This document shows, piece after piece, positions 4,610-16,461 of a DNA stretch of 64,000 bases; position 1 is the first letter of the stretch, and every line of letters begins with the position of its first letter. Below the pieces are notes generated by a model. The model was not told where the DNA came from, ran no database searches, and worked only from the letters and a program-made list of their open reading frames with translations. The position numbers and the translations under genes are program-made. This DNA comes from Rhodoferax potami (lineage in GTDB: Bacteria; Pseudomonadota; Gammaproteobacteria; Burkholderiales; Burkholderiaceae_C). Location of the stretch: assembly GCF_032193765.1 (NCBI RefSeq), contig NZ_JAVBIJ010000001.1:124001-188000 (forward strand), written 5' to 3'.

Positions 4610-4744
4610 TGAATTAAGATTTCTGAAATAAAAACATATTGTCTTGTAAATGTGAAATTTAAAGTCAAAAAAATTTGAATTTCAATCGGTAATTTCTCAT
4701 CAAAACTCTACCATTCGCTCCATTGTTTGTTTTGGAGGTTTTCT

Positions 4745-6640
4745 ATGTGCGGCATCGTCGGCGCGGTTTCTACCCGGAATATTGTTCCCGTTTTGGTTCA
4801 GGGCTTGGAGCGCCTGGAGTACCGGGGTTACGACTCCTGCGGTGTTGCGGTGTACGGGCTGGGGGCACAAAGCGGCCTGCGCCGCGCGCGTAGCACGGCA
4901 CGGGTGTCCGAGCTGATGGAGCAGGTCGCGGCAGGCGATGTGCAAGGACATTTGGGCATTGCACACACCCGCTGGGCCACTCACGGTGCCCCTGTGGTGC
5001 ACAACGCCCACCCCCACTTCAGTCACGGAACCGGTGCAGATGCCGAGAGCAAGCCCGGCCGCATCGCGCTGGTGCACAACGGCATCATTGAAAACCACGA
5101 TGAACTCCGTGCCGCCCTCAAGGCCAAGGGTTATGTGTTTCATAGCCAGACCGATACCGAGGTGATTGCCCACTTGGTCGATAGCCTCTACGACGGTGAT
5201 TTGTTTGAGGCCGTGAAGGCCGCTGTTTTGCAGTTGCACGGAGCGTATGCGATTGCCGTGTTTTGCAAAGATGAGCCGCAGCGTTTGATTGGTGCCCGGG
5301 CGGGCTCGCCCCTGATTTTGGGCGTGGGCAAAGACGGACAAGAGCACTTTCTGGCGAGTGACGCAATGGCCTTGGCCGGTGTGACCGATCAGATCGTGTA
5401 CCTGGAAGAGGGTGATGTGGTCGACTTGCAGCTTGGCAAGTACTGGTTGCTCGACAAAGCGCACAAGGCGGTTGCACCTGCACAGCGCCCGGTCAAAACC
5501 GTGGTGGCCCACAGCGGCGCGGCTGAACTGGGCCCTTACCGCCATTACATGCAAAAAGAGATTTTCGAGCAGCCACGCGCCATTGCCGATACGCTGGAAG
5601 GCGTGGAAGGCATCGTGCCGGAGTTGTTTGACCAACAGGGCAACCACCAGCCTGGTGCCAATGCGGCCCGGGTGTTCCAGCAAATCGACAATGTGCTGAT
5701 CCTGGCGTGCGGCACTAGCTATTACAGCGGCTGTGCTGCTAAATACTGGATCGAGAGCATTGCCAAAATTCCATGCAATGTGGAAGTTGCCAGTGAATAC
5801 CGTTACCGGGACTCGGTTCCCAACCCCAAGACCCTGGTGGTCACCATCACTCAGAGTGGCGAAACCGCCGACACGCTGGCGGCCTTGCGCCATGCACAAA
5901 GCCTGGGCATGCAGCACACGCTCACCATTTGCAATGTGGCTACCAGCGCCATGGTGCGCGAATGCAGTCTGGCGTATGTAACGCGGGCGGGTGTGGAAAT
6001 CGGCGTGGCATCCACCAAGGCCTTTACCACCCAGTTGGCAGGTTTGTTTTTGTTGACCTTGTGCCTGGCCCAGGCAAAGGGCCGTTTGAGCGATGCCGAT
6101 GAGGCCCGCCATTTGAAAGCCATGCGCCATCTGCCGGCAGCGCTCCAGGCGGTGTTGGCTCTGGAGCCCCAGATCATTGCGTGGGCCGATGACTTTGCCA
6201 AAAAAGAAAACGCCCTCTTTTTAGGCCGTGGTCTGCATTACCCGATTGCTCTCGAAGGTGCGCTCAAGCTCAAAGAAATCACCTATATCCACGCAGAAGC
6301 CTATGCGGCGGGCGAACTTAAGCATGGGCCTTTGGCCTTGGTGACCAGTGACATGCCTGTCGTAACCGTGGCACCGAATGACGCCTTGCTTGAAAAGCTC
6401 AAGAGCAATATGCATGAGGTGCGCGCCCGCGGTGGTGTGCTCTACGTGCTGGCCGATGCCGATACCAAAATTGAGAGCGGCGAAGGCTTGCACGTCATCC
6501 GCATGCCGGAGCATTACGGCGAGCTTTCACCGTTGCTGCACGTGGTTCCCTTGCAATTGCTGTCGTATCACACCGCCTTGGCAAAGGGCACGGACGTCGA
6601 CAAGCCGCGCAACCTCGCCAAGAGCGTGACCGTCGAGTAA
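4745..6640 (+). CDS. glmS: glutamine--fructose-6-phosphate aminotransferase (isomerizing)
   Basis: Converts fructose-6-phosphate and glutamine to glucosamine-6-phosphate, the first step toward UDP-GlcNAc. The 631-residue protein begins [12 protein letters not shown], with Cys2 as the N-terminal nucleophile of the glutaminase domain; this requires the start at 4745, which follows GGAGG. Two SIS sugar-isomerase domains follow ([39 protein letters not shown]) and the conserved tail [11 protein letters not shown]. The last codons form the left attachment repeat of the island that follows. No glmS ribozyme is expected or seen upstream. Confidence 0.97.
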
Positions 6641-6641
6641 G
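6625..6641 (+). repeat. left attachment-site direct repeat (glmS 3' end)
   Basis: CGTGACCGTCGAGTAAG, matching CGTTACCGTCGAGTAAG at 16445-16461 in 16 of 17 bases (13 contiguous identical). It encodes VTVE-stop of GlmS, so insertion leaves the protein intact. Confidence 0.85.
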
Positions 6642-6642
6642 G

Positions 6643-6658
6643 TGGCTAGGGGGTAATT
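6643..6658 (+). repeat. left terminal inverted repeat of the island
   Basis: TGGCTAGGGGGTAATT sits 1 bp inside the left direct repeat. Its reverse complement, with one mismatch, is AATTACCCCCCAGCCA at 16421-16436 near the other end. These may be recombinase arm sites or transposon-like ends. Confidence 0.75.
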
Positions 6659-7041
6659 TACTTTCCCCTACCGTCCCTCTTTTCCACCCGTATTTGGGTC
6701 GTTTTAGAGCCTTCTAGGAGCTTGTAACCCTTGGCTTTCACCTTTGGGTCGTTCCACTTGAGCTTGTCCCCTACGATGGGGTGTTTGAAGTGGATTTCTA
6801 GCTCGTGATCTCGGGTTTTAGGAAGGAACCGACACTCGATCTTTTCGATCAAGCCCTGAAGGTAAAGCTGACGCTGTTCATCGGTCAATTTAGCCTTCTC
6901 TTTGATCTCTTCACCGAACATACCAACCCAGTCAACCCATTCCTTCTTTTCTGTTTCACCACGGAGCTTCAGACGGAGGTTAGTGATGTCCGTTTTGTAG
7001 AGGTCAGCTTGTTCGTTTAATTTCTTTGAAGTACCAAACAC
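6658..7041 (-). CDS. probable C-terminal fragment of a large serine recombinase
   Basis: 127 residues, rich in Lys/Glu, with KKLNEQADLYKTDITNLRLK, then EWVDWVGMFGEEI, LTDEQRQLYLQGLIEKIECRF, HELEIHFKHPIVGDKLKWND and KGYKLLEGSKTTQI. The coiled-coil followed by a beta-rich tail resembles the C-terminal end of site-specific serine recombinases; this is pattern recognition, not a database result. The catalytic and DNA-binding domains are absent. Its reading frame overlaps the 3' end of the truncated hsdR by 38 bp, which points to a deletion that fused the two genes. No convincing ribosome-binding site precedes the ATG, so it may not be translated. Confidence 0.45.
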   Translation of the reverse strand: MFGTSKKLNEQADLYKTDITNLRLKLRGETEKKEWVDWVGMFGEEIKEKAKLTDEQRQLYLQGLIEKIECRFLPKTRDHELEIHFKHPIVGDKLKWNDPKVKAKGYKLLEGSKTTQIRVEKRDGRGK

Positions 7042-8794
7042 AATGCTTTCTAGATTGTGTGACGATCATTCCACGTGATCGACCTTGAATTTCTTTGGAG
7101 CCCTTGTCGATCCAATGATCCAACATGATTTGAACTTTGCTACGAATTGTCATCTCATGAGAGTCGACGTAACGTACAAGCTCTAGCTTCCCTTTACCAG
7201 TAGGAATCTCAATGTCACCGTCTTTGGTTTGTTTTACTTTAAAGTAGCGTTTGTATGTTGTGTAGTTCTGGAGTACGTCTAGAGTGAAGCCTTCATGGAT
7301 GGACTGGTACATCGAATAGATGTGGAACGGAACAAACTTTCCGTCCTGTGTCTTCGTACCGAATAATTCGAGTGTCTTTTCTTTGGGTGTACCTGTGAAG
7401 CCAAAGAATGAGATGTGAGATTGTTTTCCACGACTCTGAATCTCTTGACGAAGCATCTCTTCATAGTCGAAGTCGTCGTCATCTTCGTCAGATTTGGACA
7501 GAGACTTCTTGAGTTCTTTCGACATTTCACCCGATTGGCTGGAATGAACTTCGTCGATGATCACGCCGAAGGTTCTGTTTCCTAGTGAAGCAATCGTTTC
7601 GGAAATGAACGGGAATTTCTGGATGGTCGTAATGACAATATCTTTACCTTGTTCCAAAAACTTTTTGAGCTCTTGTGAGCCGTGTTCAACCCCGTTGACT
7701 ACTCCATCAATCTTTTCAAGCGAGCGAATCGTATTCCGTAGCTGATCATCAAGTACTGTTCTATCAGTCACAACGATGATGGTGTCGAATAAGCGCTTGG
7801 TGTCACCCTTTGAACGATACAACGAAGTCAGAGTATGAGACAGCCAGCCGATTGAATAGGATTTTCCAGAGCCTGTCGTATGTTGAACAAGGTAGTTCTT
7901 TCCGACACCATCTTTCTTAAGTTGTCGTCTGAACTTACGAATCAAGTCCAGCTGGTGGTATCGAGGAAAGACTAGAACTTCCTTGACTACTGAATCGATC
8001 TTTTGAGTCTTGTCGTTGAAGAAGAATTCCTTCTCTTTTGACAGATGAACAAAGTTCTCGAGAACATCAATCAATGAAGAAGGTGGAAGTATTTCTTCCC
8101 ACAGATATTTGGTTCGGTACCCACTCTCTACAGACGGATTCTCAAGATCACGGTTGTACGGAAGGAAGAAGGTTTTCTGTCCCGCTAACCGAGTGGTCAT
8201 GGACACTCGGTTGTTATCGACACAGAAATGAACCATACAGCGCTTGAAGTGAAGCAACGGTTCTTTTGGGTCTCGATCGAATCGGTACTGATTCTCAGAG
8301 TGCTTGACGTTCTGTCCAGTTAACTGATTCTTTAGCTCCATCGTCACGATGGGAAGCCCATTGAGAAAGAGAACCATGTCAATGGAGTTCTCATTCTGTT
8401 CTGAATAGTGAAGCTGTCTAACTACCGTGAATTGATTAGATTGGTAGAGTTTTAGGTGATCTGGATTGAGGTCGCTCTTGGGCTCGAAATAGCAAAGATT
8501 CAGATAGACCCCACGGTCAACAACTTGATTTCTTAGGACATCGATAATCCCACGCTTTGAAATTTCCGAAGATATACGAGCGAGGATTTTGTTTTCGGTA
8601 TCAACATCATAGATTTCTTGTAGACGACCCCATTGCTCAGGTTGTGTATCTTTGATGAAATCAATGACTTGATCACGAATCAAGCAAAGATTACGGTCAT
8701 ATTCACTAAAGTGGAGAGTAGAGTAACCAACGCTCTTCAGATGGTCTTCGATATGCTCTTCAAACTTTTTTTCTGTAGGGCTTAGTCCGCTCAT
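7004..8794 (-). pseudogene. hsdR: type I restriction enzyme R subunit, 3'-truncated
   Basis: The 596-residue frame has the HsdR nuclease region (DMVLFLNGLPIVTMELKNQL, with D..ExK), helicase Walker A (HTTGSGKSYSIGWL), the DEVH box (VIIDEVHSSQSG) and motif III (FFGFTGTP). It reaches the start of the second RecA-like domain (MIVTQSRKHCVWYF) and then ends. Full-length HsdR is usually about 1000 residues, so roughly 400 are missing, including helicase motifs V and VI. Restriction activity is therefore unlikely (inference). The start overlaps the hsdS end by 4 bp (ATGA), showing an original hsdM-hsdS-hsdR operon. Confidence 0.85.
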
Positions 8795-10080
8795 ATCATT
8801 TTCTCCGTAACTTTTACCTTACCCGTAACGGCTGACGAAATGAGGGATTGTCTGTATTCACCAAGCAAGGATTTTCTTTTTTCTTCTAATTGAATGCTTC
8901 TGTCGAACTTAGAGATGTTTATTTGAAGATGTTCAACAATCGCCTTCTGTTCGTCAAGAGGGGGAAGCGTGATTTTTAATTCCACTAGCTCTGATGAGTT
9001 AATCGCTGGATAGCTCACACCATAAGAATTACCAATTACCTTTGATATGAACCACTCAGATTTAACCGTGAATGATAAAAAATCTTGATCCAGATATCCG
9101 CTTTGGTCTCTGAGAACACAGAAACCAGTAGAACAAATTACGTCATCGACTTCAGGGACAACTCCAATAGCCCTCAAATATGTTCTTACTGTAGAAATGA
9201 TTACGTCTTTAGGCTTGACAATTCTTCGTGCTCTTGACGGACTTTCTGAAAAGTTGATTTTTGGGGAAATGCTCACACCATCTAGATAATCAACATCACC
9301 AATTTCTATGTAATGAAATTCATAATTTGAATCTGTGTTCTCATCTAATGTTTCGGTGTTGTATGTGACTAAGTACTTTAATTTTTGTACTCCCCAATGT
9401 TTCGGAATTTCACCAATCCACTCGTCACCACTATCCTTCATCTCTACATTTGGATTGAGCCCTTTTGTCACATACTGATTGATCAATGAAGTTCGTTGCT
9501 CTTTGAGCAGTTCGATTTTTTTTTCGATCTTGTTGATCAATGAATCTATCTGGCTTGTTTTCTTATCAAGGTAGCAAGAAATAAGGTTTTGTTCTTCAAG
9601 TGGTGGTGAATAAACGTCGATTCCCATAAAGGTGTCATAACGAACAACCTTTCTAAGACCTGTGTAATAAGGTCTAAGCCCTTTATGGTCATCTATAGTT
9701 TGATAAAAGTAAGTCCAATATTTGGGATCGTTTCCTTCTCTTGTTGAGAAGACATCGTAAGCCGAGGTAATCATTCCGTGATCTTTGGAAAGACCGACCG
9801 TTCTAGGAGTTTCATCAAGGTCGAATAAGCAGAATATAAGTTGATCAGGATTGACGACTTGGTAACCCTCAAAGCTCTCAGGAAACTTACCACCACCATC
9901 CATGTCACGAGGTTTCACCCCTCCCTTACCCATTGTTAGTAAGGTGAACGATTCCCAGTTTTCACCAACAATCTCTTTCTTTTGGGTGAATACGTGTTTG
10001 TTTTTTAGGCTCTTCCAATGGCTTGGGGCTTTATCCATCCAAAAAGATTGAACATCTCTATAGCTCTCATAGTTATTCAT
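8791..10080 (-). CDS. hsdS: type I restriction-modification specificity subunit S
   Basis: 429 residues with two target-recognition domains and two conserved coiled-coil repeats: EEQNLISCYLDKKTSQIDSL...LINQYVTKGLNP after the first, and DEQKAIVEHLQINISKFDRS...SLISSAVTGKVKV after the second. Recognises the bipartite DNA target for the methylase. The start ATG at 10080 lies inside the last codons of hsdM (8-bp overlap), which supports translational coupling; longer in-frame starts lie wholly within hsdM. Intact, so modification may persist although hsdR is broken. Confidence 0.9.
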   Translation of the reverse strand: MNNYESYRDVQSFWMDKAPSHWKSLKNKHVFTQKKEIVGENWESFTLLTMGKGGVKPRDMDGGGKFPESFEGYQVVNPDQLIFCLFDLDETPRTVGLSKDHGMITSAYDVFSTREGNDPKYWTYFYQTIDDHKGLRPYYTGLRKVVRYDTFMGIDVYSPPLEEQNLISCYLDKKTSQIDSLINKIEKKIELLKEQRTSLINQYVTKGLNPNVEMKDSGDEWIGEIPKHWGVQKLKYLVTYNTETLDENTDSNYEFHYIEIGDVDYLDGVSISPKINFSESPSRARRIVKPKDVIISTVRTYLRAIGVVPEVDDVICSTGFCVLRDQSGYLDQDFLSFTVKSEWFISKVIGNSYGVSYPAINSSELVELKITLPPLDEQKAIVEHLQINISKFDRSIQLEEKRKSLLGEYRQSLISSAVTGKVKVTEKMI

Positions 10081-11785
10081 CAGCCATCTCCATCGACAAC
10101 TGTTGAATTTCATCATCAAGTGATTTCAGGTCTTTCGAGATTTCGTCCAAACTTCTTAGCGGTGTAAATTTGTAGAAGTATTTTGTGAAGTTGATTTCGT
10201 AACCGATCTTGTCTTTGGATCGATCCATCCAAGATTCTGGTAAGTGAGGCTTCACCTCACGCTCGTAATAGCTTTCAATGTCTTCAGACAACGAAACACG
10301 TTCGTTATCTCTTTTTGATGTATCGGGCTTTGGCTTTCCTTGACGATCTTTTTTGATTTCACCGTTTTCGATTAATGGTAGTTCAACTACAACCTTTGTG
10401 TAACCGAAGAAGTTGTTCGGATAAATCTTACAAAATTCACTTTCTTCGAATTTCTGATAGATGTTAAATAGCTCATCTTTCTGTTCTTCAGTGATGTACT
10501 TTCCTTTGTCCCCAAGGTTCTTTTTCAGCGAAGTCCAGAATGAGCTTCCATCAATCAACTGAACCTTACCTTTACGCTCCTTGGACTTTTTGTTAGTCAC
10601 AATCCAGATGTAGGTCGTAATACCTGTATTGAAGAACATACGGTCTGGGAGAGAAACAATACATTCCAACCAGTCGTTTTCAATTACCCATTTACGGATT
10701 TCAGATTCACCACTACCAGCATCACCAGTAAAGAGCGGTGAGCCGTTAAAGACGATACCAATACGTGAGCCCTCGGGGTTCATCTTGTGAATGAGGTGTT
10801 GGAGGAACAGGAGTGACCCGTCCGAAGTTCTTGGGGTTCCAACAAAGAAGCGACCATTCGGATCTTTAGCCTCTTCCGTTACAAACTCTTCTTCGGACTT
10901 CCAGCTCACACCAAAAGGTGGGTTGGTGATCATGTAGTCGAACTTACGACCCTGTAGCCGATCGTCAGATATAGAAGAACATGGACCGTGAATGTTCTCA
11001 GGGTTCTCGTCCATCATCAGTAAGTCGGACTTACAGATTGAATATGTCACATCGTTTAGCTCTTGACCGTATAGGTCGACTTTCAGATTTGGATTGATGT
11101 TTTCGTGTATCCATTCCTTACCAATGGTCAACATACCTCCTGTTCCACAACAGGGATCAAAAACGGAACGAATCTTTCCTTCACCTTGAAGGTCTTTACG
11201 GTCTCCTCCGAACACAAAGGAAACCAATAATTTCACAACGTCTCGTGGGGTGAAATGGTCTCCGCTTTCCTCGTTCGACATTTCAGAGAATTTACGAAGG
11301 AGCTCTTCATAGACCGAACCCATTTGGTGGTTGTCGATCTTGTCTGGGTGAAGGTCGAATTCAGTGAACTTATCAATCAGTAAGTACAACCGTTTATTTT
11401 TGTGTAGCTTCTCAACGAGCGGATTGATCGAGAAGTTTTCGATGATGTCTAGAACGTTCTTTGAGTAGCCCTGAACGTAGTTGTTGAAATTCATCAACAC
11501 GTTATTCGGGTCGCTCTTGATTCGTGACAGGTCGAATTTAGACGAATTGAAAAACGGGTAGCCAACTTGTCTCAAGATCACAGGAGTTGGGTCGGATAGC
11601 TGGTCTTTGTATTTTGTGTAGAGCTCAAAGACTTCATCCTTTTTCGGCTCTAGAACACAGTCCAGCCGTCTCATCACGACAAACGGAAGAATTACCCGTC
11701 CGTATTCGGAAGGTTTGAATAAGCCCCGAAGAACATCATCGGCTGATGACCAAATGAGTGAGGATAGGTTGGTTGTATTGTTCAT
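10073..11785 (-). CDS. hsdM: type I restriction-modification methyltransferase subunit M
   Basis: 570 residues. The N-terminal HsdM helical bundle (SLIWSSADDVLRGLFKPSEY, about 9-28) is followed by the AdoMet-binding motif I (FDPCCGTGGML, about 213-223) and the catalytic motif IV NPPFG of N6-adenine methylases. It methylates the HsdS-specified adenine and would protect the host. First gene of the leftward hsdM-hsdS-hsdR operon; the unknown gene at 11811-12536 lies 25 bp upstream and may be cotranscribed. Confidence 0.95.
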   Translation of the reverse strand: MNNTTNLSSLIWSSADDVLRGLFKPSEYGRVILPFVVMRRLDCVLEPKKDEVFELYTKYKDQLSDPTPVILRQVGYPFFNSSKFDLSRIKSDPNNVLMNFNNYVQGYSKNVLDIIENFSINPLVEKLHKNKRLYLLIDKFTEFDLHPDKIDNHQMGSVYEELLRKFSEMSNEESGDHFTPRDVVKLLVSFVFGGDRKDLQGEGKIRSVFDPCCGTGGMLTIGKEWIHENINPNLKVDLYGQELNDVTYSICKSDLLMMDENPENIHGPCSSISDDRLQGRKFDYMITNPPFGVSWKSEEEFVTEEAKDPNGRFFVGTPRTSDGSLLFLQHLIHKMNPEGSRIGIVFNGSPLFTGDAGSGESEIRKWVIENDWLECIVSLPDRMFFNTGITTYIWIVTNKKSKERKGKVQLIDGSSFWTSLKKNLGDKGKYITEEQKDELFNIYQKFEESEFCKIYPNNFFGYTKVVVELPLIENGEIKKDRQGKPKPDTSKRDNERVSLSEDIESYYEREVKPHLPESWMDRSKDKIGYEINFTKYFYKFTPLRSLDEISKDLKSLDDEIQQLSMEMADE

Positions 11786-11810
11786 GAAGATTCCTAAGTC
11801 TTGAATGAGG

Positions 11811-12536
11811 TCAGGGGAAGAGCCCCTTAGATGTGTTCGTTACAGAAGCTCGTGCTTTCTTGAGGTATCGGCTAACGGTCGCTTCCATGAGTTTTTTACT
11901 AGCCGTGTCTAACGGCTTTCCGCTCTTCAAGTAGTCAACGTACAGGTGCTTGTTGAGCGGAAGGAATTGACCTAGCTCCCAGAGCTTCATTTTTGGGTGC
12001 TCGATACGCTTGTCCCATACATTTAGAGCCGTCGTAAGCGCTTCGATGTTCGGTTGCCCCGTGAATTGGTACTTGGCTTTACTCGTTTTAGCGTAGCGTT
12101 TTCCTCTTTGACCTTTGTGGTTCTGGTCTAGAAGGCTTCTAAACCGCTGGAGGATGAATTTTTTGGGAAGGTTGAGGGGTACGCTGACCAACAGACGATC
12201 ACCCTCTATAGGGGCTTCCTCGTTCTTGGAGAGAAGTCTTACCGTTTCCTCGGCTGGTGGGTTCGAAAACAGCCTAGCCCCACGACCATCTTCAGTCCAC
12301 CAAGCCTTGAAGTCATTAGCCCTTACGTCACCAAAGTCCTCGTAGAGCTTCGACAGGGAGCCTTTACCGCTGGACTCACAGGTCTTCAGGTAGTCCTCGT
12401 TCCGCTTCAGGTACGACCACCAGACGTAGTAGATCGTCTTTTTCCAAGCCGATTCGTCCTTGACGTTCTTTCCACGACCAAAAGTTGGGTGTTGGTAGGG
12501 GAAGTGTCGTGGTCGTGAATTCTTGGTGGGATTCAT
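11811..12536 (-). CDS. island protein of unknown function, upstream of hsdM
   Basis: 241 residues, basic and Trp/Tyr rich, with KTIYYVWWSYLKRNEDYLK, FGDVRANDFKAWWTEDGRGA and RLFSNPPAEETVRLL. I think homologues occur beside restriction or replication genes in other mobile islands, but I cannot name a domain. The C-terminal half has a helical, possibly DNA-binding pattern (TASKKLMEATVSRYLKKARA). The ATG at 12536 was chosen; a TTG six codons upstream is also possible. It is read leftward ahead of the hsd operon, so it could be a regulator of that operon or a replication protein (speculative). Confidence 0.7.
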   Translation of the reverse strand: MNPTKNSRPRHFPYQHPTFGRGKNVKDESAWKKTIYYVWWSYLKRNEDYLKTCESSGKGSLSKLYEDFGDVRANDFKAWWTEDGRGARLFSNPPAEETVRLLSKNEEAPIEGDRLLVSVPLNLPKKFILQRFRSLLDQNHKGQRGKRYAKTSKAKYQFTGQPNIEALTTALNVWDKRIEHPKMKLWELGQFLPLNKHLYVDYLKSGKPLDTASKKLMEATVSRYLKKARASVTNTSKGLFP

Positions 12537-12557
12537 GTTTTCAATGTAACACAAAGC

Positions 12558-12741
12558 CTTAACACTTGAAATAGCGACTTTTCGACTGTTTGTTTTGTTG
12601 GTTTTGTCGAATTTTTCTCATAAAGCTCACCAATAACTTAACACTTTAAATGACGCATTTATTCTTGGTGGAGATGTTTATCAGATAAAGGAGTCTAATA
12701 GAAACATGAACAAAACGAGCATTTAGCTTAACAGTTCATTT
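12558..12741. repeat. three direct repeats between the island's divergent arms
   Basis: CTTAACACTTGAAAT (12558-12572), CTTAACACTTTAAAT (12637-12651) and CTTAACAGTTCATTT (12727-12741), spaced 79 and 90 bp apart in the AT-rich gap between the leftward hsd arm and the rightward arm. They could be operators of a shared regulator (for example the island RHH protein) or iterons. Role is inferred from repetition and position only. Confidence 0.55.
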
Positions 12742-12769
12742 TTTATTAAACACACGAAAGGAATTAAAT

Positions 12770-13087
12770 ATGACAGCATTTTCAAGCTTTTTCAAAGAGG
12801 ATTTCCTGAAAGAAAAAGTCAGCGAAACGAGGAACGATTTTCACCAAGCTAGGACTGAGTACGAGCTAGCTATGAGAAGAGAAATTCTTCATCGAGTTAA
12901 TCACTGTCCTTGTTGTTTTGACGGATTTTTCGAGAACGTGAAAGCTCGAATTCGAGAAGAGGCTCTTCAAAACAACTTCGAGCCCGATGTGATGGAGGTT
13001 CTAAACAGAATGTCCCTCACTCCTGTAGTCACTGATGAGGAGGACGAGGATGAAACAAGGGACGTGACTGGGGAATCAATCCATTAA
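12770..13087 (+). CDS. small acidic island protein with a CPCC motif
   Basis: 105 residues starting after AAAGGAA at a good distance. Helical N-terminal half (FLKEKVSETRNDFHQARTEY), then NHCPCCFDGFF, a helical segment and a very acidic tail (TDEEDEDETRD). The CxxC could bind metal or form a disulfide. It is the first gene of a rightward set of three ending at the terminator at 14158. Not recognised. Confidence 0.65.
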   Translation: MTAFSSFFKEDFLKEKVSETRNDFHQARTEYELAMRREILHRVNHCPCCFDGFFENVKARIREEALQNNFEPDVMEVLNRMSLTPVVTDEEDEDETRDVTGESIH

Positions 13088-13137
13088 GAAGCTGAGCCAA
13101 CAACCCTATCTCAGAAATTTTAGAAAAAGGAAATATT

Positions 13138-13545
13138 ATGAAAACCAGCAAGATGAACCCAACGGATCGTTTTGTCCAAAACATCATTTCAGCCGCTCAA
13201 GAATTCAATGATGCTATGTATGACAAAGATTTACGTGAAATCGAAATGTTCGAGCAGCTATTGGAAAGCGAAACGAAACTAGCTCGAGAATCTTTTGAAA
13301 AAGCAAAAAAGGAATATGAGGAAGTCTTCAAGAATTTCTTAATCAAACATGTTACGGGTGATGATTTTGAAGATTTTCACAAGAGAGCGTGGGAGGGTAC
13401 TGTTGAAAATCTTTATCCCGAAGTAGCCATATCGCTAATTGATGAGCTAGAAGTTTATGGAAACATAGTTACCGAGCACTATTGGTGGATTCAGGAAGGT
13501 CGTTACCTTGACGAAAACGGGGAATTGCTCAGTGAATACCGCTAA
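13138..13545 (+). CDS. acidic coiled-coil island protein, unknown
   Basis: 135 residues with an AAAGGAA ribosome-binding site. Residues about 30-60 form a charged coiled coil (EIEMFEQLLESETKLARESF, then EKAKKEYEEVFKNF), and the C-terminal part is acidic and aromatic (TEHYWWIQEGRYLDENGELL). It overlaps the next gene by 14 bp and is probably cotranslated with it. No known domain recognised. The similar layout of 12770-13087 (helical, acidic, similar length) hints at a related role. Confidence 0.65.
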   Translation: MKTSKMNPTDRFVQNIISAAQEFNDAMYDKDLREIEMFEQLLESETKLARESFEKAKKEYEEVFKNFLIKHVTGDDFEDFHKRAWEGTVENLYPEVAISLIDELEVYGNIVTEHYWWIQEGRYLDENGELLSEYR

Positions 13546-14137
13546 ACGAATCCGTAGGATTGAGTTGCTCATTCACCGTTTTGACAACGGAGGGTCTGTT
13601 ACACGATCCTCCATTGAGCGGGTGCTTGGTGCTACTGGATTAAGTAGGCTTGATACCGAATGGATGAATGAGAAAAGCAGTCGTAACTACAAACCCAAAG
13701 AGATTGTTGAATACTCAGAGCGAATTAGACGTGGTCTGATTTATTACGCTTTAGGTGATAAGCAATCACTCAAGGGTGACGGCTACAAAGCTAGAAAGTC
13801 ATTTCACAAGGCTGAATCGATTCTTGAAAATGCTGTTGAGTATTTGAGGGAGGTCGTCAGTACTGACTCTAGTTTGAGATTGTGGATTGATCGGGATGTA
13901 GGCTTTGGGATTGAAGTCGAACTTTGTCCCGTAGGTATCCCACGTCCTGTTTGGTCAACCAGCAACTACAAGAGTCAATGTTCTTTACCGAAAGTAACCA
14001 AGAGGGATTTGGCTAGAGAGATGTTACAGACCGAGTTGGAAAAACTTGTGGGTAGAGAACCATTGGAGCTAGTGAATCTTGGATTTGGGACAAAAAGATC
14101 ATTTGATATTTCGTCCTTTTCGGGATTCAAGTTCTAA
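13532..14137 (+). CDS. island protein of unknown function
   Basis: 201 residues from a GTG start at 13532 preceded by GGGGAA; an upstream TTG at 13508 is less likely. The N-terminus (AKRIRRIELLIHRFDNGGSV) is basic and could be a helix-turn-helix (GGSVTRSSIERVLGATGLSR). The middle is helical (KSFHKAESILENAVEYLREV) and resembles a repeat-type helical fold. It is the last gene before a strong terminator. No family recognised. Confidence 0.6.
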   Translation: MNTAKRIRRIELLIHRFDNGGSVTRSSIERVLGATGLSRLDTEWMNEKSSRNYKPKEIVEYSERIRRGLIYYALGDKQSLKGDGYKARKSFHKAESILENAVEYLREVVSTDSSLRLWIDRDVGFGIEVELCPVGIPRPVWSTSNYKSQCSLPKVTKRDLAREMLQTELEKLVGREPLELVNLGFGTKRSFDISSFSGFKF

Positions 14138-14157
14138 GTCCTAAAACGGACGTTTTT

Positions 14158-14189
14158 ACAAACCACCTTCGGGTGGTTTTTGTTTTTTT
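14158..14189 (+). terminator. rho-independent terminator
   Basis: Stem AAACCACC-TTCG-GGTGGTTT followed by TTGTTTTTTT, 20 bp after the stop of the 13532-14137 gene. UUCG tetraloop and a long T-run make this a textbook terminator. Confidence 0.92.
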
Positions 14190-14203
14190 ATAAATAGTTT
14201 TAC

Positions 14204-14310
14204 GAACGCTATACGAGAGCGTTCTTAGTGAATGTAAAGCCGTTGATAGCTTACTCGCTCTTCCAATACCGACTTTTAGAGAGGTCGGTAATCCTTAGTA
14301 CGTCTAAAAG
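14204..14310. other. cluster of inverted repeats upstream of the HUH gene (candidate replication origin)
   Basis: Three pairs of arms lie in 107 bp ahead of the HUH protein gene: GAACGCT/AGCGTTC (14204-14210, 14218-14224), ACCGAC/GTCGGT (14268-14273, 14284-14289) and CTTTTAGA/TCTAAAAG (14273-14280, 14303-14310). Rolling-circle origins are commonly such stem-loops located next to the rep gene. The origin call is an inference; the region could also be promoter and leader. Confidence 0.4.
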
Positions 14311-14320
14311 AAAGTAAACA

Positions 14321-14899
14321 ATGATTACAAATACAAACCAACTGAAAGACACTCTCCATAACCATAGGTACGGACATGAGATTGTTAGAAAGTCCCTATC
14401 GACCGAAAGAAATCTGAAGTTACAAGAACTGGACTGGATTACATCTAACCCTGACTGGACTGTATTCACGATAACCGTAACCTTCAAGAACCTAGTCCCG
14501 CTAGAAACTGGTCAAGGAATGAAGCTGGCTACCAAGTACGAATACAACAAGAAGGTTCTGACCAAGATTAGGAAAAGGCTCTGTCGGTTGACTAACTACT
14601 GGGACAAGGTTTTACCGATCACGGACTTCTACGTCTACGAATATGACCAAACCAGCTTTTTTAAGAAGGTTTCCAACAACCAGTCTCCCCATCACATTCA
14701 CGGAATTCTTCCAATCCCTAATCGGGTTTTACATAAGTTCTACAACGTTGAGACGGGTGAGCTGGATCCACGACTGGTGAAAGATTTGAAGTCGCTTCCC
14801 AAGGTTTCCACGTTCTTGATCGAACCGTTAAGACTGGATCACAAGGAAGCTTGGTTCAACTACATGTTGAAGGAAAAGATGATGAGCGAGCTGATGTGA
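14321..14899 (+). CDS. HUH-type endonuclease-like protein (Rep/gpII-like)
   Basis: 192 residues carrying three elements in the order expected of HUH nicking enzymes: a motif-I-like strand WTVFTITVTF (47-56), a metal-binding HUH motif HHIHGIL (124-130) and a candidate catalytic Tyr with following Lys in FNYMLKEK (Tyr181, Lys184). HUH Reps nick single strands at an origin and join covalently through Tyr. The protein is smaller than most plasmid Reps and lacks a helicase domain, as in inovirus and small-plasmid initiators. The upstream palindromes are a candidate target. The motif reading is direct; activity is inferred. Confidence 0.6.
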   Translation: MITNTNQLKDTLHNHRYGHEIVRKSLSTERNLKLQELDWITSNPDWTVFTITVTFKNLVPLETGQGMKLATKYEYNKKVLTKIRKRLCRLTNYWDKVLPITDFYVYEYDQTSFFKKVSNNQSPHHIHGILPIPNRVLHKFYNVETGELDPRLVKDLKSLPKVSTFLIEPLRLDHKEAWFNYMLKEKMMSELM

Positions 14900-14924
14900 G
14901 CCCTGAAAATTACGAACGTAAAAA

Positions 14925-14941
14925 ATCGTGACTTTCACGAT
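14925..14941. repeat. short inverted repeat after the HUH gene
   Basis: ATCGTGA-CTT-TCACGAT, 26 bp after the stop of the HUH gene and between convergent genes. Could be a weak terminator or a structural site; no T-run follows. Confidence 0.45.
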
Positions 14942-15002
14942 AGCTACCTAAAACAGTGTTTTGTGTGTTCATCAATCGGTCTTAGACCTTTTGCTACGGT
15001 GT

Positions 15003-15545
15003 CTAGGCTCGGTTGAGCTCGATGATGTAACCATCTGTCGTGACGATGTACGTTCGAGTCTCTTCCGTCCAGCTATCACCGTAGTCGAAGTCATGATCTT
15101 CGTAGTAGGGCTCTACAACGTATCGAGTTTCACCCGTAGGAAGAGTGAAAGCGGTGGCTGTCAGGTCTAATTTCTCATTGTCCAAGTTCACTTTGAGAGA
15201 GCAGCTCCCATAGCCCCTGATACTCCACTTTTCAAATACCAGAGCATGAGTTTCGAGCTTAGGAGCAACCCGTTGAGTGTTCTTTGACTCGCTGTAATTG
15301 ACGTCGATGTCAGTTAAATCGACTTCCTCGTCATCGACCGAAGCTCTATACCTAGGGTGCCCATCGGTAACTAGGAAGCCGTTCGCTTGAGAATCCCCCA
15401 TAAGTTGGTCATGTAGCTCTTCTAGGTTTTCCCAAAAACCATCATCACTCTGTTCAGCCGATACAAGCGCTACCAGTTCAGCGTCCGTGATGCTCACCGT
15501 GTTTGCTTCGTACATCTTTCCCGTCACGTAAAGGGTCTTAGTCAT
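15003..15545 (-). CDS. acidic island protein of unknown function
   Basis: 180 residues from the ATG at 15545, which has GGAGAA upstream. Acidic throughout (DDEEVDLTDIDVNYSESKNT) with beta-strand-rich C-terminal part (TRTYIVTTDGYIIELNRA). No signal peptide, membrane segment or catalytic motif visible. It is divergent from the RHH gene, which could regulate it. A charge and size like this suits DNA-mimic or anti-restriction proteins, but nothing specific supports that. Confidence 0.6.
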   Translation of the reverse strand: MTKTLYVTGKMYEANTVSITDAELVALVSAEQSDDGFWENLEELHDQLMGDSQANGFLVTDGHPRYRASVDDEEVDLTDIDVNYSESKNTQRVAPKLETHALVFEKWSIRGYGSCSLKVNLDNEKLDLTATAFTLPTGETRYVVEPYYEDHDFDYGDSWTEETRTYIVTTDGYIIELNRA

Positions 15546-15627
15546 TTGTGTTCTCCAGTTAGCGGACTTCACCGTTTACTAAATAGAAAACGAGAGTCGT
15601 TTTATTTATCCACCACGAAGGGAGCAC

Positions 15628-15822
15628 ATGACAACAAGAGCCCACCGTAACCAAATGCTGGGAATCAGAACTACACAAGACTTCGTCAACAAGTTCGACG
15701 GATTGTGTGATCGCTTGGGATACAACCGTTCCGAGATCATTAGGTACGTTCTGAAGCGCTTTTACAACGAGCACTTTAACAACCCCGAGAACTTCACCCG
15801 TGTCAGAAAGGAAATGTTTTGA
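15628..15822 (+). CDS. ribbon-helix-helix DNA-binding protein
   Basis: 64 residues with the Arc/CopG pattern: an N-terminal beta strand (RNQMLGIRTTQDF) followed by two helices (NKFDGLCDRLGYNRSEIIRY). Start after GAAGGGAG. Such proteins act as plasmid copy-number or partition repressors, or as antitoxin-type regulators. It is divergent from 15003-15545 and followed directly by small genes. It is a candidate for the regulator of the island's repeated operators. Confidence 0.7.
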   Translation: MTTRAHRNQMLGIRTTQDFVNKFDGLCDRLGYNRSEIIRYVLKRFYNEHFNNPENFTRVRKEMF

Positions 15823-16022
15823 TGGAACAACCAGAACTAATGTCGTTCATGGAGTGGAGAGAGCTTCACCCTGTTAAGAAAAAGAAGGAGAAAAAAGATG
15901 AGTCAAGAAGCCTTGAAGCAAACGGAGAAATTGGGATTACGAATGGTGAAGGACAAGGTACTCGACATCATCAGGAAATCTCCGTCCAAGGAGTTCATGT
16001 TTTCCCAAGTCCCGAACTCTAA
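15822..16022 (+). CDS. possible small lysine-rich protein
   Basis: Open frame of 66 residues starting at an ATG whose first base is the last base of the RHH stop (TGATG). The first part looks coding (MEQPELMSFMEWRELHPVKK) and then becomes low-complexity. From 15898 it overlaps another frame that looks more protein-like, so only the N-terminal part or neither may be real. Confidence 0.35.
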   Translation: MEQPELMSFMEWRELHPVKKKKEKKDESRSLEANGEIGITNGEGQGTRHHQEISVQGVHVFPSPEL

Positions 16023-16053
16023 AGACATCGTCATCGTTGTACGTCAGATGTGA
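15898..16053 (+). CDS. small basic protein (51 aa), unknown
   Basis: Starts at an ATG preceded by AAGGAG, begins MSQEALKQTEKLGLRMVKDK and ends VIVVRQM. It has a helical N-terminus and hydrophobic beta-like C-terminus, typical of a real small protein, and fits better than the frame it overlaps. Function unknown; possibly translationally coupled to the upstream gene. Confidence 0.45.
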   Translation: MSQEALKQTEKLGLRMVKDKVLDIIRKSPSKEFMFSQVPNSKDIVIVVRQM

Positions 16054-16103
16054 AAGCTGGCGCTGGGTCAGACCCAGCCGAAGCATCAAGTCGATTGACG
16101 TAA

Positions 16104-16391
16104 TCATCTATCTTTGACTGTGACTTCAGCGATTTCGATCTCAGGTAATGACAGAAGTCGAGCGTCTCGGATCTTCCGTTTTTTGTAAATTGAGAACACG
16201 CTTTCAGGTCCAAGAGAGAACCCTCTTGGACTCTTCCACCCCTCTGAAATGAGAAGTTGAGCTATGTCCTTGAAGGTCAATTTTTCAGCGTCTCTGAGCC
16301 TCAGTATTTCATTTGAAAGCGCTGTCTGATATTCTGTGTACGAACCGAGCCTTAGACCCTTGTGTCTAAGCCTTACAACGTAACTAACCAT
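16104..16391 (-). CDS. small HTH protein resembling the recombinase DNA-binding segment
   Basis: 95 residues from the ATG at 16391 (a GTG at 16442 is an alternative; neither has a strong ribosome-binding site). The central part, ILRLRDAEKLTFKDIAQLLI then SEGWKSPRGFSLGPESVFSI, has the spacing of the helix-turn-helix found in the middle domain of large serine recombinases (IA..L...G..SPRG....SV..I). It lies at the right end of the island. It could be an excision or directionality factor, a repressor, or a recombinase remnant. Confidence 0.5.
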   Translation of the reverse strand: MVSYVVRLRHKGLRLGSYTEYQTALSNEILRLRDAEKLTFKDIAQLLISEGWKSPRGFSLGPESVFSIYKKRKIRDARLLSLPEIEIAEVTVKDR

Positions 16392-16420
16392 AGGAGGAGT
16401 GGAAGAATGAACGGGTTCAG

Positions 16421-16436
16421 AATTACCCCCCAGCCA
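16421..16436 (-). repeat. right terminal inverted repeat of the island
   Basis: AATTACCCCCCAGCCA, the inverted partner of 6643-6658 with one mismatch in 16. It is separated from the right direct repeat by 8 bp. Confidence 0.75.
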
Positions 16437-16444
16437 GCCCACTC

Positions 16445-16461
16445 CGTTACCGTCGAGTAAG
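16445..16461 (+). repeat. right attachment-site direct repeat
   Basis: CGTTACCGTCGAGTAAG. Read in the glmS frame, TCC GTT ACC GTC GAG TAA spells SVTVE-stop, as in the intact glmS, with synonymous differences in the Ser and first Val codons. It ends 5 bp before the mobB start. Confidence 0.85.

Follow-up and report, generated by a model that had tools for sequence, protein, structure and literature searches.

The window investigated in this study, a stretch of 64,000 nucleotides from the genome of Rhodoferax potami, contains a block of about 9.8 kb at the 3' end of glmS, which is very probably an integrated mobile element of a family whose large serine recombinase (LSR) is specific for this gene, and which has been crippled here by one deletion. 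This assignment is supported by the anatomy of the attachment (att) sites, by an empty site in a genome of the same genus, by the recombinase found in relatives, by the exchangeable cargo and by near-identical backbones of elements residing in different genera. The element works like a staphylococcal cassette chromosome (SCC) but, as judged by its target site and by the cut-offs for its recombinase, it is not a member of that group.

The borders of the block (6626-16461) are reflected in the composition of the window, with a G+C content of 0.431 inside compared to 0.574 in the left and 0.593 in the right flank. They are defined by direct repeats of 17 bp with one mismatch, CGTGACCGTCGAGTAAG at 6625-6641 and CGTTACCGTCGAGTAAG at 16445-16461, and a search with GTNACCGTCGAGTAAG, allowing for one mismatch, has located only these two ends in the whole 4.0 Mb genome; the reversed control sequence gave zero matches in the same genome. 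An inner inverted repeat pairs GGTGGCTAGGGGGTAATT at 6641-6658 with AATTACCCCCCAGCCAGC at 16421-16438, which are complementary at 16 of 18 positions. The AT-rich block with direct and inner inverted repeats described in the initial annotation is thus confirmed by the G+C content and the genome-wide repeat search. No tRNA gene was found in the window and no Rfam family reached its gathering score within the block. The attachment core coincides with the last codons of glmS, encoding SVTVE and the stop. In the same-genus genome G399 (loci and genomes are designated by L and G numbers), whose GlmS is 99% identical, glmS is followed by one copy of the core and directly by mobB, which is 95% identical to the window copy, without the island. 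As shown by this empty site, the low-GC block is not ancestral, which had been named at the outset as a finding that would refute the proposal. The two repeats differ at one base, with the left repeat showing the triplet of the host (GTG, present also in G399) and the right repeat GTT, which places the crossover to the right of that position.

The recombinase presumed to be responsible for integration is represented in the window by a 3' remnant. An open reading frame (ORF) of 127 residues beside glmS (6658-7041, minus strand), which by itself has no credible Pfam match, is 98-99% identical to the C-terminus of an intact LSR of 584 residues from Sheuella amnicola (L004:14131-15885) with Resolvase, Recombinase and Zn_ribbon domains, an organization that is shared by the LSR of L007. 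What had initially been noted as a possible serine recombinase tail can thus be specified as about the last 123 residues of such a protein. The homology to the Sheuella LSR DNA begins at 7017 on the minus strand and the DNA preceding it in frame encodes HsdR, which defines a junction at 7017/7018. Since the HsdR frame joins the LSR tail at this position, one deletion accounts for both the headless LSR and the tailless HsdR. This deletion would have removed roughly 460 residues from the N-terminal side of the LSR, the C-terminal end of HsdR and, if there was one in between, a small recombinase. The remaining HsdR of 596 residues, compared to 1038 in EcoR124I, covers positions 1-542 of the 674 positions of TIGR00348 and scores under the cut-off of this model. 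As a consequence, the window copy is expected to move only with the help of a related LSR acting in trans, and the type I system that it carries is predicted to methylate DNA without cutting it. The type I restriction-modification cargo proposed earlier is therefore only partly retained, with HsdM and HsdS present but a truncated HsdR that leaves the system incomplete.

The family was defined by a genome scan with an alignment of Orf247, a conserved protein of the element, which yielded 44 loci without using glmS for finding them. An LSR of this kind is present in nine of these loci (L004, L005, L006, L007, L008, L011, L013, L030 and L045), and glmS adjoins the element in all seven where the glmS-side end is in view (L004, L005, L007, L008, L013, L030 and L045), with L006 and L011, which run off their contigs, placed outside this count. 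The contig of L012 ends before any LSR, and its glmS junction is identical in type. Additional such junctions were found in G101, G414 and G006, with the 3.4 kb beyond glmS in G414 (L083) matching no query protein except glmS. The LSR of L009 was dropped from the family as being of a different kind (20% identity), and our LSR alignment (A9) excludes this protein and that of L011, which is truncated at a contig end. Among 31 genomes, including that of the window and 30 relatives, a strong glmS match was obtained in 27 and the 3' end of the gene was visible in 24; three of these ends show a clear island end (window included), 20 are without it and one is doubtful (L061, not counted as island, where GGGGGT follows glmS at a different spacing). 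At an E-value of 1e-60, the LSR profile matches at least 858 proteins in the protein database. The relatives that the initial annotation proposed to search for do contain a full LSR at one element end and the same end architecture, although in some of them the LSR is located far from glmS.

The closest relationship links the window to Sheuella, where the regions corresponding to 6617-7017, 11815-12747 and 13685-16459 are shared at 92-98% DNA identity and the cargo between them differs. Since the glmS genes of both organisms are only about 72% identical over their best 976 bases, the similarity of the backbones points to transfer between genera and to an exchange of cargo.

Further evidence is provided by the symmetry of the attachment sites. 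When joined, the right and left element arms form a dyad with 16-21 matches in 29 positions in all eight elements of which both ends are visible (window 20, L004 19, L005 19, L007 19, L008 16, L045 21, L030 17 and L013 20), compared to means of 7.3-9.2 after base-shuffling and to 3-12 in host arms. If the centre is left free to move over 14 bases in each direction, the best position is in all eight cases located between the A and the C of GTnAC, with the runner-up reaching at most 13 matches. The symmetry is retained in L013 and L030 despite their very different arm sequences. Judged from its sequence, this dyad is the anatomy expected of the attP site of a serine recombinase, whose halves would correspond to the inner inverted repeats. 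A relation between recombinase and target is also found at the C-terminus of the protein, which reads VTVE in 44 and TVE in two more of 120 listed homologues (of at least 858, from a scoring that covered the 8000 candidates sharing most words), with the LSR gene ending within the core that also ends glmS; the VTVE end is found in none of 226 Orf247 and HUH proteins. A second group of 57 of the 120 listed homologues ends in RGK and is 78-100% identical to the Sheuella LSR (49-55% in the TVE group). This group includes the Sheuella copy, and its tail is shared by the remnant in the window.

A cargo slot extends from orf247 to the recombinase end and accommodates a restriction or candidate defence gene in seven of eight complete elements, with L007 (a candidate) and L013 (a methylase only) being weaker cases. 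It is occupied by the broken type I system in the window, by Bpu10I and a C5 methylase in L004, by a type III system in L005 and, according to Pfam, a type-III-like system in L030, by BfiI with two methylases in L045, by a helicase-nuclease matching the candidate PDC-S37 in L007, and by a C5 methylase with an unrecognised protein of 793 residues in L013. No recognised defence gene was found in the two proteins scanned in L008, one of which is a DUF2167 protein. Elsewhere, orf247 is immediately followed by type I genes in L032 and by a gene for an IIG-like protein in L012. In two further loci, genes of type I Zorya systems are located directly after orf247 (L010:10862-16252 and L020:10766-18998).

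Proceeding outward from glmS, the element in the window encodes the LSR remnant, hsdR, hsdS, hsdM and orf247 on the minus strand, orf105, orf135, orf209 and the HUH gene on the plus strand, orf189 on the minus strand, a ribbon-helix-helix-like gene and small ORFs on the plus strand and finally orf112 on the minus strand (Table 1). Orf247, with 394 relatives in the protein database, is conserved without a recognised fold. The HUH protein has 106 relatives, with H125, H127 and Y181 invariant across 48 aligned sequences. Its best structural match, obtained with VIA-align, is ORF119 of the rudivirus SIRV1 (PDB 2x3g; 20% identity), which we take to be a viral Rep and which belongs to a different type of replicon. 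Foldseek alone found no match at an E-value of 0.001, with HUH proteins missing from its top rows and 2x3g outside the best 50, and no credible sequence match was detected in the PDB. By its motif and modelled fold, the protein qualifies as an HUH endonuclease with putative activity. Small hairpins at 14138-14320, upstream of its gene, were recognised by eye and could be a nick site or terminators. For orf112, located at the end opposite the recombinase, the window copy has no Pfam match and no orthologue was found in L013; the orthologue in L004 shows a weak Sigma70_r4 match below the cut-off. Its position would make it a candidate directionality factor, which is a guess.

Table 1. Features of the element at glmS and of its flanks (positions in the window).
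Feature	Position	Strand	Basis
glmS, target gene	4727..6640	+	ORF; Pfam SIS and GATase; flanks element in relatives
Left direct repeat, attL core, 17 bp	6625..6641	+	Repeat search; single copy at G399 empty site
Left inner inverted-repeat arm, predicted element half of attL	6641..6658	+	Inverted repeat; dyad tests
C-terminal LSR remnant, about residues 462-584 of 584	6658..7017	-	98-99% identity to L004 LSR; ORF starts at 7041
hsdR, 3' end removed by deletion	7018..8794	-	Pfam HSDR_N, SWI2_SNF2, ResIII; frame extends to 7004
hsdS, specificity subunit	8791..10119	-	Pfam Methylase_S
hsdM, methyltransferase subunit	10073..11785	-	Pfam N6_Mtase, HsdM_N
orf247, core gene of element superfamily, possibly DNA-binding	11811..12554	-	
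orf247 upstream region, repeated TGTTAA boxes	12537..12756	-	
orf105	12770..13087	+	ORF; Pfam: nothing above cut-off
orf135	13138..13545	+	ORF; Pfam: nothing above cut-off
orf209	13508..14137	+	Cluster C21; homologues at same position in L004, L010
Putative HUH-type Rep-like endonuclease, 192 residues	14321..14899	+	HIH motif, single Tyr in WxxYxxKxK
orf189	15003..15572	-	Cluster C17; also in L004, L008, L012
Small ribbon-helix-helix-like protein	15628..15822	+	Weak RHH_1 match below cut-off; orthologues kept in relatives
orf112, end opposite recombinase	16104..16442	-	Orthologues at same element end in relatives
Right inner inverted-repeat arm, predicted element half of attR	16421..16438	+	Inverted repeat; dyad tests
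Right direct repeat, attR core	16445..16461	+	Repeat search
mobB, host gene after glmS in empty-site genome	16467..16967	+	Pfam MobB

Additional components are found in the relatives, where a clamp loader is present in six of eight complete elements and a sliding-clamp C-terminal domain was also observed. In the 14 kb integrative element of L005, a gp45-type sliding-clamp domain adjoins a clamp loader resembling RFC and that of T4 (L005:7893-9262). Considering all 44 orf247 loci, including those away from glmS, a minimal tyrosine recombinase is found in 25, a phage-type clamp loader in 21, a DUF6641 protein in 18 and a tyrosine integrase of the 424-residue class in 15, with the members of these clusters identified in L014. 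The region preceding orf247 contains oriented TGTTAA boxes, which number 52 compared to 8.8 expected, in 26 of 33 loci (the window and 32 others), as counted in the same upstream regions from which the box had been selected by eye and k-mer count, and they occur in elements with serine and tyrosine recombinases alike. A distant orf247 relative is located about 2.5 kb downstream of a CyRepA1-family replication gene on the Bradyrhizobium barranii plasmid pBb144S4a (L085, 210114-222807).

From these features, we infer how an intact element would integrate, excise, replicate and be transferred. The LSR would join attP, whose core copies the last glmS codons (VTVE and stop), to the 3' end of glmS, and since these codons are copied, GlmS stays intact after insertion. 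The same enzyme would excise the element as a circle, aided by a directionality factor that is perhaps encoded by orf112, and the circle may be replicated by the HUH protein acting as Rep nickase and by Orf247, joined in most relatives by the clamp loader. The host would presumably benefit from the restriction or defence system carried in the cargo slot.

Several observations weigh against the element being one of a mobile, glmS-specific LSR family. The genome of the window contains, besides the remnant, two LSRs of only 27-30% identity and thus no intact member of the family. In 399 genomes of the order, the LSR profile found two matches at an E-value of 1e-60, both with internal stop codons, one of which (G101) is frame-broken and cut by a contig end; the genome of the window itself scores below the threshold of this search. 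Relative to the att core, the genes of the window, L004 and G101 are arranged in the opposite order to those of the other members, which is not explained by a fixed crossover. The eight dyads are not fully independent, as the window and L004 are closely related. The HUH protein is absent from two of eight complete elements, as is the clamp loader. Finally, a pure serine-recombinase picture is at odds with the tyrosine-recombinase cluster genes (C1 or C5) found in 24 of the 35 other orf247 loci, and a tyrosine recombinase of about 200 residues also accompanies three of the nine LSR-bearing relatives (L011, L013 and L030; recognised by Pfam in L013 and L030). The initial annotation had named a tyrosine integrase or tnsABCD in complete relatives as evidence against its proposal; tnsABCD was not recognised in the proteins scanned, which comprise a subset of ORFs, and with a full LSR found in complete relatives the outcome of this check favours the proposal.

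Two observations concern the arrangement of the sites. A palindromic crossover dinucleotide was considered as source of the two orientations and was not adopted, since the centre of symmetry is located between the A and the C in all eight elements. In L004, a third att core, GTTACCGTCGAGTAG, is found near 13417 (7292 in glmS orientation) between the restriction-modification cargo and a small serine recombinase, an arrangement reminiscent of two formerly stacked elements.

Among alternative explanations, we consider it unlikely that the block is an integrative mobilizable element, where the HUH protein would act as relaxase and transfer would proceed by the conjugation machinery of another element. 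Relaxases and Reps have the HUH fold in common, and the protein shows the motif and, in its model, this fold. Integrative mobilizable elements with unusual mobilization proteins have been described (PMC5357655, PMC5704250), and an enterococcal cassette chromosome (ECC) was transferred when a conjugative plasmid was present (PMC6222049). However, the best structural match of the protein is SIRV1 ORF119, a presumed viral Rep and no relaxase, and a coupling protein was not recognised in the scanned proteins; no search for oriT was made.

A phage satellite or defective prophage is improbable. Such an origin would be in line with the clamp loader (phrog_168) and the sliding-clamp C-terminal domain of relatives, which resemble replication proteins of T4-type phages, and with phage-type tyrosine integrases in other orf247 elements. 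Conversely, pattern scans of viral contigs for Orf247 and the HUH protein yielded no confirmed relative, tblastn detected neither protein in 50,697 phage records, and genes for structural proteins, packaging or a capsid were not recognised among the proteins scanned. The glmS family resembles phages and other elements using LSRs (phiC31, A118, TP901-1 and SPbeta YokA) in the combination of Resolvase, Recombinase and Zn-ribbon domains and the dyad attP, and the matches of the LSR profile in the PDB are the integrases of SPbeta (YokA), A118, TP901-1 and phiC31. It differs in its glmS target, its defence cargo and HUH Rep, in the absence of recognised phage structural genes and in a subgroup whose LSR gene ends in its own att core.

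It is still more improbable that a true element of the SCC family has moved into Betaproteobacteria. Some SCC carry restriction cargo. SCC and ECC elements share the insertion by an LSR at the 3' end of a conserved gene, the direct repeats and the dyad-symmetric att sites, and a replication module has been proposed for them, according to the passages considered here (PMC6222049, PMC7581432). The top NCBIfam model is CcrB for all three LSRs tested (E-values of 6.9e-24 to 2.1e-27, the latter for L004), followed by CcrA or XisF, with CcrC also among the nearest models. Nevertheless, the scores are far under the cut-offs, with at best 96 bits for CcrB (cut-off 900), 86 for CcrA (700) and 54 for CcrC (900), and XisF follows closely at 66-78 bits. 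The term Ccr-like is a lead suggested by profile scores and not a phylogeny. The target is glmS, in the window and in eight flanked relatives found by orf247 (L012 included), rather than rlmH, and the PDB matches are LSRs of the phage type. Whereas SCC contain a CcrA/CcrB pair, the glmS family has one LSR and, mostly, a small serine or tyrosine recombinase, and it includes genes for a HUH Rep and clamp loader; a Cch-type helicase or Cch/Cch2 operon was not recognised in the scanned ORFs of the window, where no dedicated model was used. The comparison with SCC drawn in the initial annotation consequently holds for the working mode, including 3'-end insertion, repeats, dyad att sites, restriction cargo and CcrB as nearest model, but not for membership.

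The presence of a Tn7-like element at attTn7, or of a remnant of one, is very improbable, since the 3' end of glmS, the usual Tn7 target (PMC2359905), is the single shared feature and is contrasted by the absence of recognised Tns proteins, including TnsABC(D), among the scanned proteins of the window and its relatives, by the full LSR at one end in relatives and by a crossover core inside the coding end of glmS, which regenerates the gene. A genomic island directly after glmS, BCEGI-1, has been described in Bacillus cereus ATCC 10987 in a passage that, in contrast to our case, treats Tn7-type transposition (PMC2359905), and the text of that paper contains none of the words recombinase, integrase, direct repeat or restriction. 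No description of a glmS-specific LSR family was found in the titles and abstract openings listed by our searches of the open-licence PubMed Central literature.

Collectively, our analysis supports an integrated element of a glmS-specific LSR family, which in the window was probably immobilized by a deletion. Beyond this family, Orf247 may mark a superfamily, as yet without a name, of integrative elements that replicate themselves in Proteobacteria, of which many are aquatic. Such elements would combine an HUH nickase with a clamp loader and a sliding clamp of their own and would spread neither in phage particles nor by conjugation genes that they carry themselves. Their integration modules, either glmS-specific Ccr-like serine recombinases or tyrosine integrases, would be interchangeable, and every element would contain a single anti-phage system open to exchange. 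This Gram-negative counterpart of SCC is a proposal that we advance tentatively and regard as somewhat short of an even chance. The element family at glmS would itself show that the cassette-chromosome strategy, which combines a serine recombinase, insertion at a regenerated 3' end of a conserved gene and swappable restriction cargo, operates beyond Firmicutes and at a locus that is best known for Tn7. It would name a natural family of glmS-specific recombinases with a predicted attP, offer Proteobacteria a tangible carrier of restriction systems and, where related elements are concerned, of Zorya systems, and reveal that small integrative elements contain a clamp-loader module and a conserved core protein for which no fold has been recognised.

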